Shown piece after piece: positions 1-41,475 of a stretch of DNA of 41,475 nt (the first letter of the stretch is position 1; every line of letters starts with the position of its first letter). The stretch lies in the NCBI GenBank assembly GCA_001783145.1, contig MFQT01000011.1:1-41475 (forward strand). Reading direction: 5' to 3'. The DNA is from Candidatus Magasanikbacteria bacterium RIFOXYB2_FULL_38_10. GTDB lineage: Bacteria; Patescibacteriota; Patescibacteriia; Magasanikbacterales; UBA10003. The notes under the pieces were generated by a model. The model did not search any database, was not told where the DNA came from, and saw only the letters and a program-made list of their open reading frames with translations. Position numbers and translations under genes: made by a program.

Positions 1-425
1 GTGACCTCGGGCTGGACTTCCGGCTGTGCTTCCGTGCAGTCGATGGCCGTGTGGTCGCACACGCCCAGGACGCACTTGTCCAGGGTACAGGGGTTGTGGT
101 CGTCGCAGTCCCGGTCCGTCACGCATTCCGTCGTCTCCGGCACGGCCTCCTCCTCGGCCGTGGTTTCCGGCTCCACCTCCGCCGCGACTTCCGTCGTGGT
201 CTCGGTGACCTCGGGGTTGGACTCGGGCAGGAACTGGCAGTTGCCCTTCTGGCAGAACTGGTCGTTCTGGCACACGCCGCACTCGCCGCCGCAGCCGTCG
301 TCGCCGCAGGTCTTGCCCGCGCACTGGGCCACGCAGCCCGTGGTGTCGGGGTCCGACCCGACCTTCTGCTCGTAGCCGCAGGCCATGACCACCGTCAGCA
401 CCAGCACCAGCGTCAGCTTGCCCAT
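1..425 (-). CDS. Cys-rich lipoprotein, 3'-truncated by window edge
   Basis: The minus-strand frame opens at ATG 425 behind a strong SD (AAGGAGGG, 4-nt spacer) and stays open to the window edge, so 141 codons are visible. The N-terminus is Met-Gly-Lys, then a Leu/Val-rich core ending in V-V-M-A-C, a lipobox that predicts lipidation at Cys16. The mature part has Cys-rich blocks (C-G-D-D-G-C-G-G-E-C-G-V-C, and later D-R-D-C-D-D-H-N-P-C-T) joined by Glu/Thr/Val-rich linkers. Such Cys blocks with acidic linkers are familiar from surface lipoproteins of Myxococcota-like bacteria. That resemblance is from memory, not a search. Codon use is very GC-rich (GTG, CTG, GAC, GGC), unlike the genes right of 3 kb. 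It is last in a leftward four-gene array. Function is unknown; surface attachment or binding is a guess. Confidence 0.75.
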   Translation of the reverse strand, partial: MGKLTLVLVLTVVMACGYEQKVGSDPDTTGCVAQCAGKTCGDDGCGGECGVCQNDQFCQKGNCQFLPESNPEVTETTTEVAAEVEPETTAEEEAVPETTECVTDRDCDDHNPCTLDKCVLGVCDHTAIDCTEAQPEVQPEV

Positions 426-437
426 AACACCCTCCTT

Positions 438-449
438 CGCGCTTTCGCG
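438..449 (-). promoter_or_regulatory. Stem-loop abutting the SD of the lipoprotein gene
   Basis: A CGCG-CTTT-CGCG stem-loop lies immediately 5' of the AAGGAGGG site on the minus strand. The same hairpin-then-SD arrangement precedes the other three genes of the GC-rich block. A second hairpin (CCCCACA/TGTGGGG) sits further upstream at 482-498. Confidence 0.5.
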
Positions 450-550
450 CATCAATGAATTGACAAAGACCCTTTGCCGATCCCCACACCTTGTGGGGCT
501 AGAATTTCTTCCTTCGCTCACCACCTTTTAGAAGATGATGACTGAAAGAA

Positions 551-590
551 GGTGTTCAGTAATTCGGGGTTAGCCAAACTACTGAACACC
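551..590. other. Intergenic inverted repeat, 11-bp perfect arms
   Basis: GGTGTTCAGTA (551-561) is the exact reverse complement of TACTGAACACC (580-590), with an 18-nt loop. A neighbouring imperfect hairpin at 612-640 (CATCATCC-TAG / CTA-GGGATGATG, one bulge) lies just after the stop of the barrel-like gene. Neither is followed by a T-run on the minus strand, so these look like processing or stability structures or factor-binding palindromes rather than classic terminators. The 225-bp gap 426-650 holds nothing else I recognise. Confidence 0.45.
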
Positions 591-650
591 GGTTATGCAC
601 TGTTGGTTGTTACATCATCCTAGCTACTCTAGGGATGATGCTCACCGGCC

Positions 651-1613
651 CTAGAACAAGGGCAGACCGACTCCGAGCGCCAAGTTCCAGCCGAAGCCGG
701 TCTTATCCTGCCCGAAGTTAACGCCCAAGCCCAGGGAACCGATGAGCTCCACCCGCCACACCTTGTACTTGGCCAGGCCGCCCACCGTGGGCATTAGGCT
801 GATCACCCCCGGCAGGCTGGTGTCCGTAAAGGTAGTATCCATACCGAAGCCCCACTGCCACCGCTCGCCTCTGTGCTTGAGAGCACCCACGCCGACCGAA
901 CCGAGAAGCGGTTGGCTCCCCGTCATGACCCCGCCCACGTTGCCATGGAGCGCGATCATCCAGTCAGTCTTGGTTGGCAGGAACAACTCGGTTCCCACCA
1001 GCCAGGCGAGGCCTGCGGGCACCCAACTGAAGTAGAACTGCGGGATCAGGTTGACCCCCGCCTTGTCCTCCACGGTGCCGAGGCGCTTGTCCAGGATGGT
1101 GTTGGCGCTCTTGAGCGTGTCAACTTCATTCTCCACCGTCTTCAGGCGCGTGACCAGGCCTTCCACCCGCAACTTCAACGCCTTGATTTCCTGGTTGGTC
1201 GTGTCGATGCTCCGCCCCAGGGTGTCGGCGATCTGGCCAAGTTGCGTCCCGAACCTATCCTCCGAAACCAGGAGTGCGCGCTTCAAATCTTCCTTGAGCT
1301 CTGGCAACTCCTTCTCCAGCCTGGCCACCGTGGCCATACGCTGGATCAGGGTCTGGTTGCCGGAGTTGGCCGTCTCCAGGGCCTCCTTGGCCTTCTGCAG
1401 TTCGGCCTTGACCTTCTCCAGGTCGGAGATCCGACCTTTGAGATCCTCTACCTTCTTGTTGGCGCCATCGCTCATGTCAAAGGCGTGGCGGGACATGCCC
1501 ACCGCCGCTGATGTGTCCCCCACCACGTCCGTGGCGGAGAAGGGCAACTGCTGGGCCTGGACCTGCGTAGTCCACAGCCCGAGCACCAGGAGCAGGATCA
1601 ACATCCTCTTCAT
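651..1613 (-). CDS. Secreted coiled-coil protein with outer-membrane-barrel-like C-terminus
   Basis: This is a 320-aa protein. I chose ATG 1613 over an upstream in-frame start because it has GGAGG 8 nt upstream and begins a clean signal peptide (M-K-R-M, hydrophobic core, V-Q-A-Q cleavage site near residue 20). Residues about 50-190 are a long heptad-type coiled coil rich in Leu, Glu and Lys. Residues about 200-320 alternate aromatic/hydrophobic and Gly-rich strands and end in L-P-L-F. A C-terminal Phe is the usual signature of outer-membrane beta-barrels inserted by the BAM machinery. That would be unexpected in a CPR bacterium, which is thought to lack a BAM-type outer membrane, so either the block is foreign or the barrel reading is wrong. 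GC-rich codons match its neighbours. No specific family is recognised. Confidence 0.75.
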   Translation of the reverse strand: MKRMLILLLVLGLWTTQVQAQQLPFSATDVVGDTSAAVGMSRHAFDMSDGANKKVEDLKGRISDLEKVKAELQKAKEALETANSGNQTLIQRMATVARLEKELPELKEDLKRALLVSEDRFGTQLGQIADTLGRSIDTTNQEIKALKLRVEGLVTRLKTVENEVDTLKSANTILDKRLGTVEDKAGVNLIPQFYFSWVPAGLAWLVGTELFLPTKTDWMIALHGNVGGVMTGSQPLLGSVGVGALKHRGERWQWGFGMDTTFTDTSLPGVISLMPTVGGLAKYKVWRVELIGSLGLGVNFGQDKTGFGWNLALGVGLPLF

Positions 1614-1626
1614 GCTTGGTTCCTCC

Positions 1627-1671
1627 AGGGTGAGGGGGGAGAGCGAGCGTTTGGAACTCTCACCCTCCCCC
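1627..1671 (-). promoter_or_regulatory. Imperfect GC-rich stem-loop before SD of the barrel-like gene
   Basis: On the minus strand a G-rich arm (GGGGGAGGGTGAGAG) faces a C-rich arm (CTCTCCCCCCTCACCC). The GGAGG SD of the 1613 start follows one base later. Pairing is imperfect, with at least a 7-bp GGGTGAG/CTCACCC core. Confidence 0.4.
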
Positions 1672-1716
1672 GGTTGTAGCACTCTTGTGGCCGGTTGCCG
1701 GTGGCCGGTGGCCGCC

Positions 1717-2673
1717 CTAGTTGCGTGCCTTCACCAGCTCGCCCACCTCCTTCTCGCAGTCCGCCTGCGTCAGCCGGCCCTCGCTGGTCTTGACGCAACG
1801 CTCCACCGCGGCGACCCTGTCCACCATGAAGGTGGGGGTCGTCGGCTGGGGCTGGACTTCGTCCTTCTTGCTTGACAGGAAGGACCAGATCAGGATGATT
1901 AAGACCAGACCGGTCAGGGTCACCAGCATGCTCCTGATAAAGCCCTTGATGATCCTATCCTTCTCATCGGCGCTCAGCTGCCACTTGGGCCGACGCACGG
2001 GTCGCTGGGGCTCCGGACGCGGCGGCGGCACCAACCCTTCGGTCCGCTCCTCGGGCCCCTCGATCAGCTCCCAGGGATCCTCCTCCTCGGGAAGCTGGGG
2101 GGGGTCCTGTCGACCGATCTGGCCGAGCGGGATCTGGACGGTTTCCAGCTCCCGCATGGGGGACGAGACTGCCAAAAGGTCACCCTCCTGAACCGTCACG
2201 TCCTCCTCGGACCCGTCCGACTTCTTCAGGCGGATGGTGAGCCCGTCGTCGCCGACGACCTCACCCTTCACCTGCGTCCCATCCGGATGTTTCACCAGGA
2301 TTTTATCCCGGGCCTTAAGGGGCACCACGATCTTCTTGATCTCGGCGGCCGGGGTGATGGCCCGTGTGATCAGGGGATCATCAGGACCACGAGGATCCGA
2401 CGGGTGAGCGAACACGATGTCACCACCAGGGGTGATGTCGTGTACCTTCCCGCCCATGGTGGTGCCGTCCCACCCGAAAACGCACACCACTTCGCCCTTG
2501 TACTCGGGCGACTGATCCAAAATGTCGCCAGCGGGGAGTGGAATCTCTCCCTCGCCCGCCACTTCCACCCAGAAGACGCTCTTGTCGGGGGTCAGGTAGA
2601 GCAACCGCCCCACCTTCTCCGCTCCTTTGCGCAAGCGCCACCTGAACTTCGTCCCCACTCCGTCTCTCATCAT
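1717..2673 (-). CDS. Single-pass membrane protein with SH3/KOW-like repeats
   Basis: This is a 318-aa protein with AAGGAGG 6 nt before ATG 2673. There is no signal peptide. Residues about 1-170 look like three short beta-rich modules (K-V-G-R-L-L-Y; Y-K-G-E-V-V; T-Q-V-K-G-E-V-V-G-D-D-G), a spacing that suggests SH3/Tudor/KOW-like barrels. A Pro/Glu-rich linker follows (about 185-235), then one transmembrane helix (about 250-268, L-V-T-L-T-G-L-V-L-I-I-L-I-W). A short tail of about 50 residues carries two Cys 14 residues apart. This predicts a large cytoplasmic part with a small outer tail. The fold assignment is inference from hydrophobic pattern only. It lies between the small acidic gene and the barrel-like gene in the same leftward array. 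Confidence 0.7.
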   Translation of the reverse strand: MMRDGVGTKFRWRLRKGAEKVGRLLYLTPDKSVFWVEVAGEGEIPLPAGDILDQSPEYKGEVVCVFGWDGTTMGGKVHDITPGGDIVFAHPSDPRGPDDPLITRAITPAAEIKKIVVPLKARDKILVKHPDGTQVKGEVVGDDGLTIRLKKSDGSEEDVTVQEGDLLAVSSPMRELETVQIPLGQIGRQDPPQLPEEEDPWELIEGPEERTEGLVPPPRPEPQRPVRRPKWQLSADEKDRIIKGFIRSMLVTLTGLVLIILIWSFLSSKKDEVQPQPTTPTFMVDRVAAVERCVKTSEGRLTQADCEKEVGELVKARN

Positions 2674-2684
2674 GATTTGCCTCC

Positions 2685-2702
2685 TTGCCCCCTACGGGGC
2701 AA
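2685..2702 (-). promoter_or_regulatory. Stem-loop overlapping the SD of the SH3-like membrane gene
   Basis: TTGCCCC (2685-2691) and GGGGCAA (2696-2702) form a perfect 7-bp stem with a CTAC loop. On the minus strand the stem runs straight into AAGGAGG and then the ATG at 2673. No T-run follows it, so it is not a standard terminator of the preceding gene. Confidence 0.55.
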
Positions 2703-2757
2703 AAATGTTTGTCTTACCCGTGCCTAAACACCAATCATCTTGCTGGTTGACCTTGGA

Positions 2758-2988
2758 CTAGCCCTGCGGCTTGTCCTCCACCTTCTCCAGCAAGACGATG
2801 TCGTCCTTGTCGATGATGTAGGAGCAATCCTCCTCCATCACCTCCAAGCCGAACATGTCCGGGCACAGGCGCACCACGCGCCCTTCGCAGGTCCGCACGG
2901 GGTGAGCTTCGTCCAGGGTGCTGACGGTGACCTTCACCGTCATGTCCAGCACCAGATCCGTGAACTGGATGTTGGTGTAGCTCTTCAT
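2758..2988 (-). CDS. Small acidic hypothetical protein (76 aa)
   Basis: I chose ATG 2988 (M-K-S-Y-T-N-I-Q) because AGGAGGG lies 5 nt upstream. The longer in-frame start at 3027 would translate through the GC hairpin and is rejected. The 76-residue product is mostly beta-strand-like (V-K-V-T-V-S-T-L; C-E-G-R-V-V-R-L-C-P) and ends in an acidic/Lys tail. It has no signal peptide or membrane helix. It is the first gene of the leftward GC-rich array, about 400 nt downstream of a good sigma70-type promoter. I recognise no family; its size and fold suggest a small regulatory or RNA-binding-type barrel, which is a guess. Confidence 0.65.
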   Translation of the reverse strand: MKSYTNIQFTDLVLDMTVKVTVSTLDEAHPVRTCEGRVVRLCPDMFGLEVMEEDCSYIIDKDDIVLLEKVEDKPQG

Positions 2989-2999
2989 CGTTCCCTCCT

Positions 3000-3012
3000 G
3001 TCCCCGCGGGAC
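3000..3012 (-). promoter_or_regulatory. Stem-loop abutting the SD of the small acidic gene
   Basis: GTCCC-CGC-GGGAC is a perfect 5-bp stem with a 3-nt loop. On the minus strand it is preceded by T6 and followed at once by AGGAGGG and ATG 2988. It is the cleanest example of the hairpin-SD arrangement. Confidence 0.55.
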
Positions 3013-39877: not shown

Positions 39878-39937
39878 GTTTTTAATTAGGTAAAAGAAAA
39901 ATTAGGTGTTTTTTGAGCAGCCTTATTTACTGAAGAC

Positions 39938-39966
39938 ATTGTAGTCTAATTTAAGAGAAAAAGCAA
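39938..39966 (-). promoter_or_regulatory. Candidate lepB promoter
   Basis: Minus strand: TTGCTT (39966-39961), 17-nt spacer, TACAAT (39943-39938). The predicted leader is about 54 nt. It overlaps the 3' tail of the truncated RT frame. Confidence 0.45.
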
Positions 39967-40468
39967 GGCCTGATAAATACAGCTTATTTAAGCTAAATTT
40001 TCCACTAGATAAAATGTCTGAAAGTATTTTATGGTTGACGCTGGCAAAGAATTTCTGTATATCACACTTTAGCACCCAGCAGGTGCGGGCATAATTCTGA
40101 CTTACCTTGTGGGACATTCTCTTAAATTTGTCTAAAGCCTTATGAGTGCCCTTATCTTTACGACAAGAAAAAGAATCGTCTATAAAGGTTTTATCAAAGA
40201 AAGGATAAAGCTGACGATAGACAGCGTGATGGAGTAGACGATCACGGACAGAGGCCTTGTGAATATGCCGACGCTTAGGATCATTAACATAAAAATCTTC
40301 ATAGTCGCCATGATGGTAAATATGATTGGCTAAATCACGTTGAAGTGATAAAATATTATCTAACAGATCACGTTCAAAAATTTGAACATCTTCTTTCATC
40401 TTTTTACCAACAATAAACTCCTGCCAAGCATATAATAAATTATCTAAGTTAATAATATCATTATACGT

Positions 40469-40891
40469 ATGATGGAAAATACTTTTCATAATCAAAATCA
40501 AAAAAATTTTCCTTTAACCCCCCCCCCCCTTTTTTTACGCATTGGAGAGGAAATACCAATTTTAAGTAAACTTAGCGAGGCCTACAAGTTATGGCAAGAA
40601 TATTTAGCGCACTTGCCCAAAATGACACGTTATACAATCGGAGCAAGAATAGATAATCTGTTTACTGATTTAATTGAAATAATATTAAACGCTGGTTATA
40701 CAAAAGGCAAAGAAAAACTACCCCTGTTAGAAAAATTCAGCAGAAAATTTGATGTTTTAAAATATTTTCTTAAACTGCTTTGGGAGATAAAAGCCCTCAA
40801 TAATACTAAGTACATTACCCTTTCGGACAAATTAGACCAGATTGGAAAAAAATTAGGTAAATGGCTACAATTTTTTACCCTTCAAAAATAA
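40469..40891 (+). CDS. avd: DGR accessory variability determinant (Avd), four-helix bundle
   Basis: Avd forms a positively charged pentamer that binds the DGR reverse transcriptase and template RNA. The 140-aa product has the CPR-type pattern M-E-N-T-F-H, I-P-I-L-S-K-L-x-E-A-Y-K-L-W-Q-E-Y-L, T-R-Y-T-I-G-A-R-I-D-N-L-F-T-D, L-R-K-F-D-V-like helix and L-W-E-I-K-A-L-N-N-T-K-Y. A C12 then T7 tract (40518-40536) near codons 17-22 is prone to slippage and would frameshift the gene. ATG 40469 or 40472 may be used; 40472 lies on the palindrome shared with RT. The gene runs opposite to both RT and template repeat, unlike usual DGR cassettes. Confidence 0.85.
   Translation: MMENTFHNQNQKNFPLTPPPLFLRIGEEIPILSKLSEAYKLWQEYLAHLPKMTRYTIGARIDNLFTDLIEIILNAGYTKGKEKLPLLEKFSRKFDVLKYFLKLLWEIKALNNTKYITLSDKLDQIGKKLGKWLQFFTLQK
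40472..40489. repeat. Imperfect 18-bp palindrome carrying both avd and RT start codons
   Basis: ATGGAAAATACTTTTCAT: the left ATG starts avd on the plus strand and the right CAT starts RT on the minus strand. Seven of nine base pairs are Watson-Crick, so the first six codons of the two genes are antisense to each other. Confidence 0.8.
40518..40536 (+). repeat. C12-T7 homopolymer tract inside avd
   Basis: Twelve C (40518-40529) followed by seven T (40530-40536). It is the longest C-run in the window and lies in the coding region; the present length keeps avd in frame. Confidence 0.9.
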
Positions 40892-40892
40892 A

Positions 40893-40914
40893 CTCCTTCA
40901 AAAAATTGAAGGAG
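40893..40914 (-). terminator. Hairpin ending the template-repeat RNA
   Basis: CTCCTTCAA / TTGAAGGAG, perfect 9-bp arms with an AAAA loop. On the minus strand it is followed by TTTATTTTT. It lies just 3' of the template repeat and at the avd stop, with no T-run on the plus strand. Confidence 0.75.
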
Positions 40915-40919
40915 AATGA

Positions 40920-41062
40920 AAGACTGGCGGACAGCCAGGAATCGGCAGTTGCCGTTCCAGTTGTTGCTGATCCAGTTCAGGTTGAGGTTGCGTTTGGAGT
41001 CGTTCCTGTTGAGGTAGGCGACATGCAGGTTGCCATTGAAGTTGCGCCAGACCGAGCCACCA
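40920..41062 (-). repeat. DGR template repeat (TR)
   Basis: On the minus strand a non-coding stretch reads W-R-N-F-N-G-N-L ... N-R-N-D-S-K-R-N-L-N ... N-N-W-N-G-N-C-R-F-L-A-V-R. It has twelve Asn codons in about 36, eleven of them AAC. AAC-rich codons are the hallmark of a TR because adenine mutagenesis there can give many amino acids but no stop. The frame has a stop upstream at 41109-41111 and no gene-length context, so it is a template rather than a protein. A CTGGC/GCCAG hairpin (40924-40938) sits at its 3' end, where the homing signal normally lies. No variable-region match exists elsewhere in the window. GC content is well above the flanks. Confidence 0.8.
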
Positions 41063-41085
41063 CATATATGCAAGACAGCTTCTAG

Positions 41086-41332
41086 AACACTACTCCTTGT
41101 CCGCCTCTACTGGTTAGCTGACTTAGGGTTGAATCGCATTTGGAGACGTTATCTCCCTACTATCTTGCACCAAGTATTTCATTTTTAGGATTTATCCATC
41201 ACACACTAGCATAAGCCAGTAGCCGATGCTACTCTGGTTTTTTGGATAATCCAGATTTCAACCGCCCAAAGCCATAGCCGTGGACTGTATCGTTTACTAT
41301 CCAAATATATTATAAGCTAAGCCTGAAATTTC
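41086..41332 (-). ncRNA. 5' part of the DGR template RNA, no gene
   Basis: These 250 bp between the inverted repeat and the template repeat hold no credible ORF on either strand. They contain several short complementary segments. This is the expected position of the leader of the TR transcript. Extent and fold are not determined. Confidence 0.4.
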
Positions 41333-41337
41333 GTCGA
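41309..41337 (-). promoter_or_regulatory. Weak candidate promoter of the template RNA
   Basis: Minus strand: TCGACG (41337-41332), 17-nt spacer, TATAAT (41314-41309). Perfect -10, poor -35. The -35 overlaps the edge of the 18-bp inverted repeat at 41333-41370. Confidence 0.3.
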
Positions 41338-41370
41338 GCCCAAAAGAAAAAATTTTCTTTTGGGCTCGAC
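41333..41370. repeat. Perfect inverted repeat, 18-bp arms
   Basis: GTCGAGCCCAAAAGAAAA, two bases AA, then the exact reverse complement (41353-41370). It may form a cruciform, act as a bidirectional stop, or mark an element boundary. No T-run follows on either side beyond the arms. Confidence 0.8.
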
Positions 41371-41387: not shown

Positions 41388-41418
41388 CCCCATAGACAGA
41401 AGTTCATCTGCTATGGGG
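41388..41418 (-). terminator. Terminator of the gene entering from the right edge
   Basis: CCCCATAG (41388-41395) pairs with CTATGGGG (41411-41418). On the minus strand the hairpin is followed by ATTTTTTAATT. It lies 10 nt after the stop codon at 41428-41430. Confidence 0.7.
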
Positions 41419-41427
41419 TAAGGTTAC

Positions 41428-41475
41428 TTACGCAAGGGTTAAAGGTTCAGGAACCAGGTATCCTGGGATCCAGGG
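41428..41475 (-). CDS. 3' end of an unidentified minus-strand gene
   Basis: An open frame runs from the window edge to TAA at 41428-41430. The last 15 residues read P-W-I-P-G-Y-L-V-P-E-P-L-T-L-A. A terminator hairpin follows 10 nt later, which supports a real gene end. The tail shows no match to the template repeat, so if this is the DGR target its variable region is not at the very C-terminus. Only 16 codons are visible, so a chance frame is possible. Confidence 0.35.
   Translation of the reverse strand, partial: PWIPGYLVPEPLTLA

Follow-up and report, generated by a model that had tools for sequence, protein, structure and literature searches.

In the diversity-generating retroelement (DGR) of BPP-1, avd lies on the same strand as the other parts, 5' of the template repeat (TR), and both the recruitment of bRT-Avd and the priming of cDNA fall to a structured spacer on the 3' side of the TR (PMC12875486); a review likewise describes about 200 bp of trailing RNA in DGRs (PMC8867640). 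DGRs in CPR are already known and, as far as the searched text of Roux et al. 2021 goes, their DGR clade 2 is restricted to Patescibacteria/CPR (PMC8144416). The window analysed here, a 41,475-nt stretch that makes up the whole of contig C11 in the genome (854 kb, 20 contigs) of a tiny, uncultured member of the Patescibacteria, carries a DGR remnant at the right-hand end of this ~41-kb contig. The explanation that best accounts for the observations as a whole, and in which we place considerable confidence, is that the window holds a DGR dead by loss of its reverse transcriptase (RT), whose relatives would work with a folded leader RNA, a pairing of this leader with the 3' end of the TR, and a repeat-based switch in avd. 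A sequence-only reading had recognised an RT, an Avd and a TR at this locus, and all three are borne out, the first two by Pfam matches and the TR by homology:

39923 to 40501, minus strand: truncated DGR RT open reading frame, with no internal stop (RVT_1 match; homology to the RT of a relative, G011).
About 40005 to 40491, minus strand: the RT-homologous part of this frame, with an ATG at 40491.
40469 to 40891, plus strand: avd (accessory variability determinant), intact, divergent from the RT and overlapping its start (Pfam bAvd, E=3e-11).
About 40918 to 41063, minus strand: TR, adenine- and AAC-rich, encoding the C-type-lectin-like variable-region segment ending in WISNNWNGNCRFLAVRQ (homology to the TRs of relatives; directly after the leader).

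The same reading had stated the strands correctly, with avd pointing against RT and TR, but it was mistaken in taking this as a broken same-strand cassette. In relatives avd is divergent from the RT and overlaps its start, as it does in 25/25 held-out loci, which were found by RT protein and come mostly from other classes of the phylum; the sole case of avd and RT on the same strand (L049) comes from a Brocadiia MAG. A broken same-strand cassette is thus ruled out, and the divergent arrangement is the normal, conserved layout of this DGR clade. Relatives show a fixed order of variable region (VR), spacer, TR, avd in reverse and RT, the spacer measuring about 220-470 bp and mostly 320-460 bp, and the normal clade order reads target gene with VR, promoter, leader RNA, TR, terminator, and an avd that faces the TR and points away from the RT.

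A conserved structured RNA leader of ~190 nt is found directly 5' of the TR throughout the clade, and it is intact in the window, where its elements are:

41068 to 41237, minus strand: leader RNA core with helices P2, P4, P5 and P6 (full-length match to covariance model R1, 125.8 bits).
41264 to 41287, minus strand: leader hairpin P1, CAGTCCACGGCTATGGCTTTGGGC (RNAalifold on 21 leaders; outside R1).
41309 to 41337, minus strand: promoter-like site of the leader-TR transcript, TCGACG-17-TATAAT (10/12 consensus positions, by consensus match only).

Families that share about 65% identity in their RTs show 75-77% DNA identity in the spacer adjacent to the TR. RNAalifold on 17 leaders in a MAFFT alignment (A2) gave 33 pairs, 26 of them with double changes. 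When 63 leader sequences were considered, 32/33 pairs had compensatory changes on both sides and 96.3% of cells were paired, against 66.7% after shuffling and about 38-46% when the pairing was slid, in an alignment that was fitted to the covariance model and is hence biased towards it; free of that fit are alignment A2, the discovery of the leader in new genomes, and its presence in 24/25 held-out loci found by RT protein. Searching with R1, that is, with the RNA alone and no proteins, we identified the leader in 87/286 genomes of the class. Besides the window, 28 of these RNA-found loci were fetched; a TR/VR pair was detectable in 25 and an RT was in place in 21, and in loci with a TR/VR pair the TR starts -1 to 59 nt behind the leader. 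No Rfam match to the leader above the gathering score was obtained in the window, L006, L012, L074, L038 or L022, and an Rfam microRNA match at window positions 41333-41369, far under the gathering score, was dismissed as chance. Two side observations concern single loci: G002:C8 (L054) has an intact RT and avd of the clade, but a leader RNA was found neither nearby (up to 9 kb away) nor elsewhere in the assembly; in L038, a DUF3800-V RNA (Rfam RF02964; 3189-3394) adjoins a tRNA gene about 2 kb from the DGR.

The leader also pairs with the far end of the TR. The three elements concerned lie in the window as follows:

40893 to 40914, minus strand: Rho-independent terminator of the TR transcript, with a 9-bp stem, TTTATTTTT (nearly all relatives have this element after the TR).
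40915 to 40927, minus strand: 3' arm of the long-range helix, formed by the TR end and tail, CCAGTCTTTCATT (leader-tail complementarity; single-sequence fold).
41170 to 41185, minus strand: leader segment forming the 5' arm of the long-range helix, AAAATGAAATACTTGG (leader-tail complementarity; single-sequence fold).

Just 5' of helix P4, a leader segment with the consensus AAUGAAGAUACUxG is complementary to the last bases of the TR and the tail, and this helix is also part of the minimum-energy structure computed for the window RNA itself. On an alignment made from sequence only (A5, 51 loci), 13/14 of its pairs showed double changes, with a covariation of 0.328 compared with 0.116 for shuffled and 0.09-0.13 for slid pairings. 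With shuffled tails as the control, the per-locus p-values of leader-tail pairing were weak, and column covariation and tail swapping were used instead: a leader's own tail outpairs tails swapped in from other loci (KS p=1e-10; held-out p=0.001). Subtypes of unrelated sequence keep the pairing (L023, L013, L015); in the leader subtype of L008, L013, L015 and L023, CACCCCGTG replaces ACUUGGUGC and is still complementary to the locus's own TR end.

Nearly all loci have the Rho-independent terminator at the stop of the convergent avd, at most about 55 nt after the TR, so that there is no room for a long structured 3' spacer, and a spacer of the BPP-1 type (about 140-200 nt, 3' of the TR) is absent from the window and nearly all relatives. 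From its position and its pairing, we infer that the leader takes over the job of this spacer. It could instead be a regulatory element, an attenuator or riboswitch-like device acting on TR transcription, and its place 5' of the TR behind a promoter-like site is indeed that of riboswitches; the covarying helix with the TR 3' end, together with the replacement of a structured 3' spacer for which no room is left, makes this reading unlikely. We favour the leader as the probable functional RNA domain of the DGR.

A second conserved feature was found where avd and RT overlap:

40518 to 40529, no strand assigned: C12 tract (G12 on the RT strand) at the avd/RT junction (conserved place in relatives).

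A simple repeat, G6-14 or (GA)n, occupies this junction clade-wide, but it is missing at some loci, e.g. L025, L079, L080, L114, L126 and L128. Runs of at least 8 G or C number 42 within the 120-nt avd/RT junction and 6 elsewhere in 316 kb, and in 7/10 held-out loci free of a G-tract (L111, L118, L121, L124, L129, L131 and L132) the tract is replaced by (GA)n/(CT)n. The repeat unit is not a multiple of three, and its conserved place is between the avd start codon and the avd domain: no ATG lies between the tract and the domain, and the ATG is found beyond the tract. With the caveat that homopolymer lengths in MAGs may be miscalled, this ATG was in frame in 19 G-tract loci (the window included), out of frame in 26 and absent in none; the corresponding counts were 3, 12 and 0 in held-out G-tract loci and 2, 5 and 0 in (GA)n/(CT)n loci. 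In total, avd was in frame with its ATG in 24/67 loci and out of frame in 43/67, which fits the one third expected of a random phase (p=0.70), and the unused frames of in-frame loci offered an ATG in 6/38 cases only. In the window the avd ATG is in frame across the C12 tract.

The junction repeat thus bears, at the level of sequence, a slipped-strand phase-variation signature. Since known DGRs cannot retrohome without Avd (PMC10053308), changes in tract length would turn diversification on or off. The repeat might instead, with no phase switch involved, serve slippage during transcription, form a DNA structure or set the promoter spacing of the divergent genes, as its location in the shared 5' overlap of avd and RT would suit, and as would the fact that in most loci (31/45) the RT has an ATG of its own after the tract. 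We consider this improbable, given that two different repeat types occur at one place, that all 67/67 loci have an open avd ATG past the repeat in one frame or another, and that the in-frame fraction is that of a random phase. The phase-variation reading is the one carried forward here.

The identity of the window TR rests on its place between leader and terminator and on its homology to TRs of relatives that have adenine-mutated VRs: it matches the TR of L021 (76%, E=9e-23) as well as those of L026, L035, L016 and others. The alternative that this "TR" is the VR of a coding gene was ruled out, as there is no long ORF on the strand and the element sits between leader and terminator. In relatives, an adenine-tolerant scan placed almost all TR/VR mismatches at TR adenines (15/15 in L010, 24/24 in L007, 19/19 in another locus). 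Unlike other loci, L006 (G011) shows 20 differences between its VR and TR (441-573 vs 938-1070), 7 of which are not at adenines, and its VR may be drifting although its RT is full length. Variable regions matching 40920-41062 with changes at adenines, which the sequence-only reading had envisaged, did not materialise in the assembled genome, where a BLAST search and an A-to-N pattern search returned only the TR itself. Assembled sequence stops 412 bp upstream of the TR, at the place expected for the 3' end of the VR; the missing VR thus reflects an assembly boundary and is no evidence of loss. Between the TR and this end we read two further elements from the sequence:

41388 to 41418, minus strand: hairpin and T-run.
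41428 to 41475, minus strand: end of an ORF (ending in PWIPGYLVPEPLTLA and a stop) truncated at the contig boundary and bearing inverted repeats CCTGG/CCAGG.

The first is probably the terminator of the target gene. The second would be the expected site of the 3' end of the target gene and of a post-VR hairpin, as suggested by the VR-to-TR distances in relatives and by the post-VR hairpin of BPP-1 (PMC3240598). A search of the genome itself for the target gene, with the G011 target as query and no positive control, was empty. A long inverted repeat (TCGAGCCCAAAAGAAAA...TTTTCTTTTGGGCTCGA; window 41334-41369) also lies between the leader promoter and what is presumed to be the target's terminator.

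The RT is the part that has been lost, as the sequence-only reading proposed in placing a truncation after CDIQKFFASV and noting the lack of YADD. The window fragment, cut after CDIQKFFASVNHKILSDIL, matches only positions 8-97 of the 205 in Pfam RVT_1 (E=2e-9); half of the RT's length is gone. Against the N-terminal half of the full-length, 386-aa RT of G011 it shows 72% identity over 156 residues; the latter has both LGNLTSQ and YADD, and the window RT ends before the catalytic YxDD and the SQ-containing motif and lacks the two. RT homology stops at KFFASVNHKILSDIL, and the downstream part of the ORF is non-RT sequence that enters a native promoter:

39938 to 39966, minus strand: lepB promoter, TTGCTT-17-TACAAT, entered by the RT remnant (same stretch in G001).

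The sister genome G001, which is without an RT match, has this stretch 5' of its lepB as well. When the C-terminal RT half was sought in the assembled genome, the best match (E=0.05, with 3 stops) was noise, and no full RT was found elsewhere in it. The only other RT-like stretch of the genome, on contig C4, is likewise truncated, with an RT fragment that ends after about 124 residues. At about 600-1551 of that contig (G000:C4, L053) we observed a TR-like stretch, a reverse avd, a G10 tract, the RT fragment and then rpsL, with an N run at 415-464 just upstream of this remnant. No conserved truncated RT was seen among the relatives, most of which have open frames of about 330-420 aa. With two independent truncations in the one genome, decay is likelier than a single assembly error. 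These results support the view, already taken by the earlier reading, that the window locus is a decaying chromosomal DGR of a Patescibacteria clade, a remnant and non-working copy. The second half of the RT is absent, its place being taken by sequence that leads into the native promoter of lepB; judged from its sequence, the window DGR therefore appears dead in cis, as self-mutation would be impossible without that half. Most likely, the 3' half of the RT was lost through a deletion or rearrangement that reached the lepB promoter and left leader, TR, terminator and avd intact.

It is necessary to consider that the RT-lepB junction is known from one MAG contig, which leaves a misjoin at 40.0 kb as a residual risk. 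If the RT remnant and lepB had been falsely joined, the organism would hold an intact RT. The contig does have a chimeric look, as its GC content falls abruptly near ~3 kb, from 62% to 31%, and it ends in the repeat-rich VR region; but the C-terminal RT half is nowhere in the assembly, a second and independent truncated RT stands beside rpsL on C4, the junction contains no N run, and lepB directly follows its own promoter, just as it does in G001. An artefact at the RT junction is accordingly quite improbable. Positions 1-3000 of the window have 62% GC against about 38% in the remainder, with ORFs unlike the others of the contig, and the jump near 3.0 kb probably reflects contamination of the MAG or a chimeric join.

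Loci with a leader and TR and no RT also exist among those found by the RNA (L076, L077, L088 and L093), and a partial RT is present in two others (L090 and L099). In L076 (G347:C33) and L077 (G216:C9), leader-TR cassettes have no RT or avd nearby and an intact DGR RT is encoded elsewhere in the genome, which makes a use of these cassettes in trans possible in G216 and G347; G136 and G112 have no intact RT elsewhere. Next after the TR of L077 comes a serine-recombinase-like gene. The lack of an RT in L098 was discarded as proof of trans use, the stretch being masked N. For the window, the idea that its TR could still serve an RT encoded elsewhere found no such RT in the assembled genome: that the remnant donates functional RNA and Avd to an RT in trans, on another replicon or in a neighbour cell, would suit its intact leader, TR, terminator and avd and the precedent of G216 and G347, but is very improbable in a genome with no further full RT and, as assembled, no VR to receive the cDNA, the intact parts being consistent with recent loss.

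With the window thus read as a DGR that died by RT loss, we propose the following mechanism for its intact relatives. A short dedicated transcript of roughly 400 nt would run from the leader through the TR to the terminator, as suggested by sequence conservation, the promoter-like site and the terminator. Its leader folds into helices P1-P6, of which P1 is predicted, and pairs with the TR 3' end, as covariation shows. This fold may recruit the RT-Avd complex and place or prime cDNA synthesis at the TR 3' end, after which the adenine-mutated cDNA would replace the VR, as the adenine-specific TR/VR differences in relatives suggest. The repeat in the 5' end of avd could gain or lose units and so turn Avd, and hence diversification, on and off, as its sequence signature would imply. 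At the window locus, without the 3' half of the RT, no mutagenic cDNA would be made. We incline, by a little, to the broader view that the DGRs of Patescibacteria form a mechanistically distinct class in which the RNA domain would have shifted from 3' to 5' of the template, a long-range helix would connect it to the template 3' end, and the machine would be gated by phase variation of Avd into mutator-on and mutator-off cells, the window copy having died after RT loss.

DGRs have been studied almost solely by means of one phage system, and a large chromosomal clade with another RNA layout offers an independent test of what is needed from the RNA. A compact leader-TR-terminator RNA, separate from genes, might lend itself more readily to the targeted diversification of proteins. 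If true, the avd repeat switch would explain how a mutagenic machine is kept without constant damage to its host. The dead copy in the window illustrates the loss of parts: the RT is gone and the RNA and avd remain.

Among known systems, the msr-msd RNA of retrons has a structured 5' part followed by a reverse-transcribed part, and its 5' and 3' parts pair, as in the leader-TR RNA; in contrast to retrons, the RT and Avd of these loci are of DGR type and the template is a TR matching a VR, and homology is not claimed. The avd repeat resembles the phase-variable genes of the Campylobacter and Neisseria phasomes (PMC6321876, PMC5084427), whose 5' portion carries a tract of poly-G or of short units, with a start codon beyond it and mixed frames between genomes, whereas the switched gene here is a DGR accessory protein, which would control a mutagenic machine and not a surface structure. 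No prior description of a 5' leader or of a repeat-switched avd was encountered in Rfam or in the open papers searched, a scope outside which the central DGR papers lie. By host group and features, these loci likely belong to DGR clade 2 of Roux et al., with which they share, in the searched text of that paper, the host group, a cellular location and targets without other recognised domains; neither the orientation of avd nor a non-coding RNA is mentioned in that text (PMC8144416). The intact systems are a DGR variant with a 5' leader and an avd repeat, and the window is a dead copy of it. With the BPP-1 DGR (mtd-avd-TR-brt) they share the RT, Avd, adenine-specific TR/VR differences, a 3' VR in the target and putative post-VR inverted repeats, whereas in this clade avd is inverted, the structured part lies 5', and most loci have the end of the RNA no more than about 55 nt past the TR.
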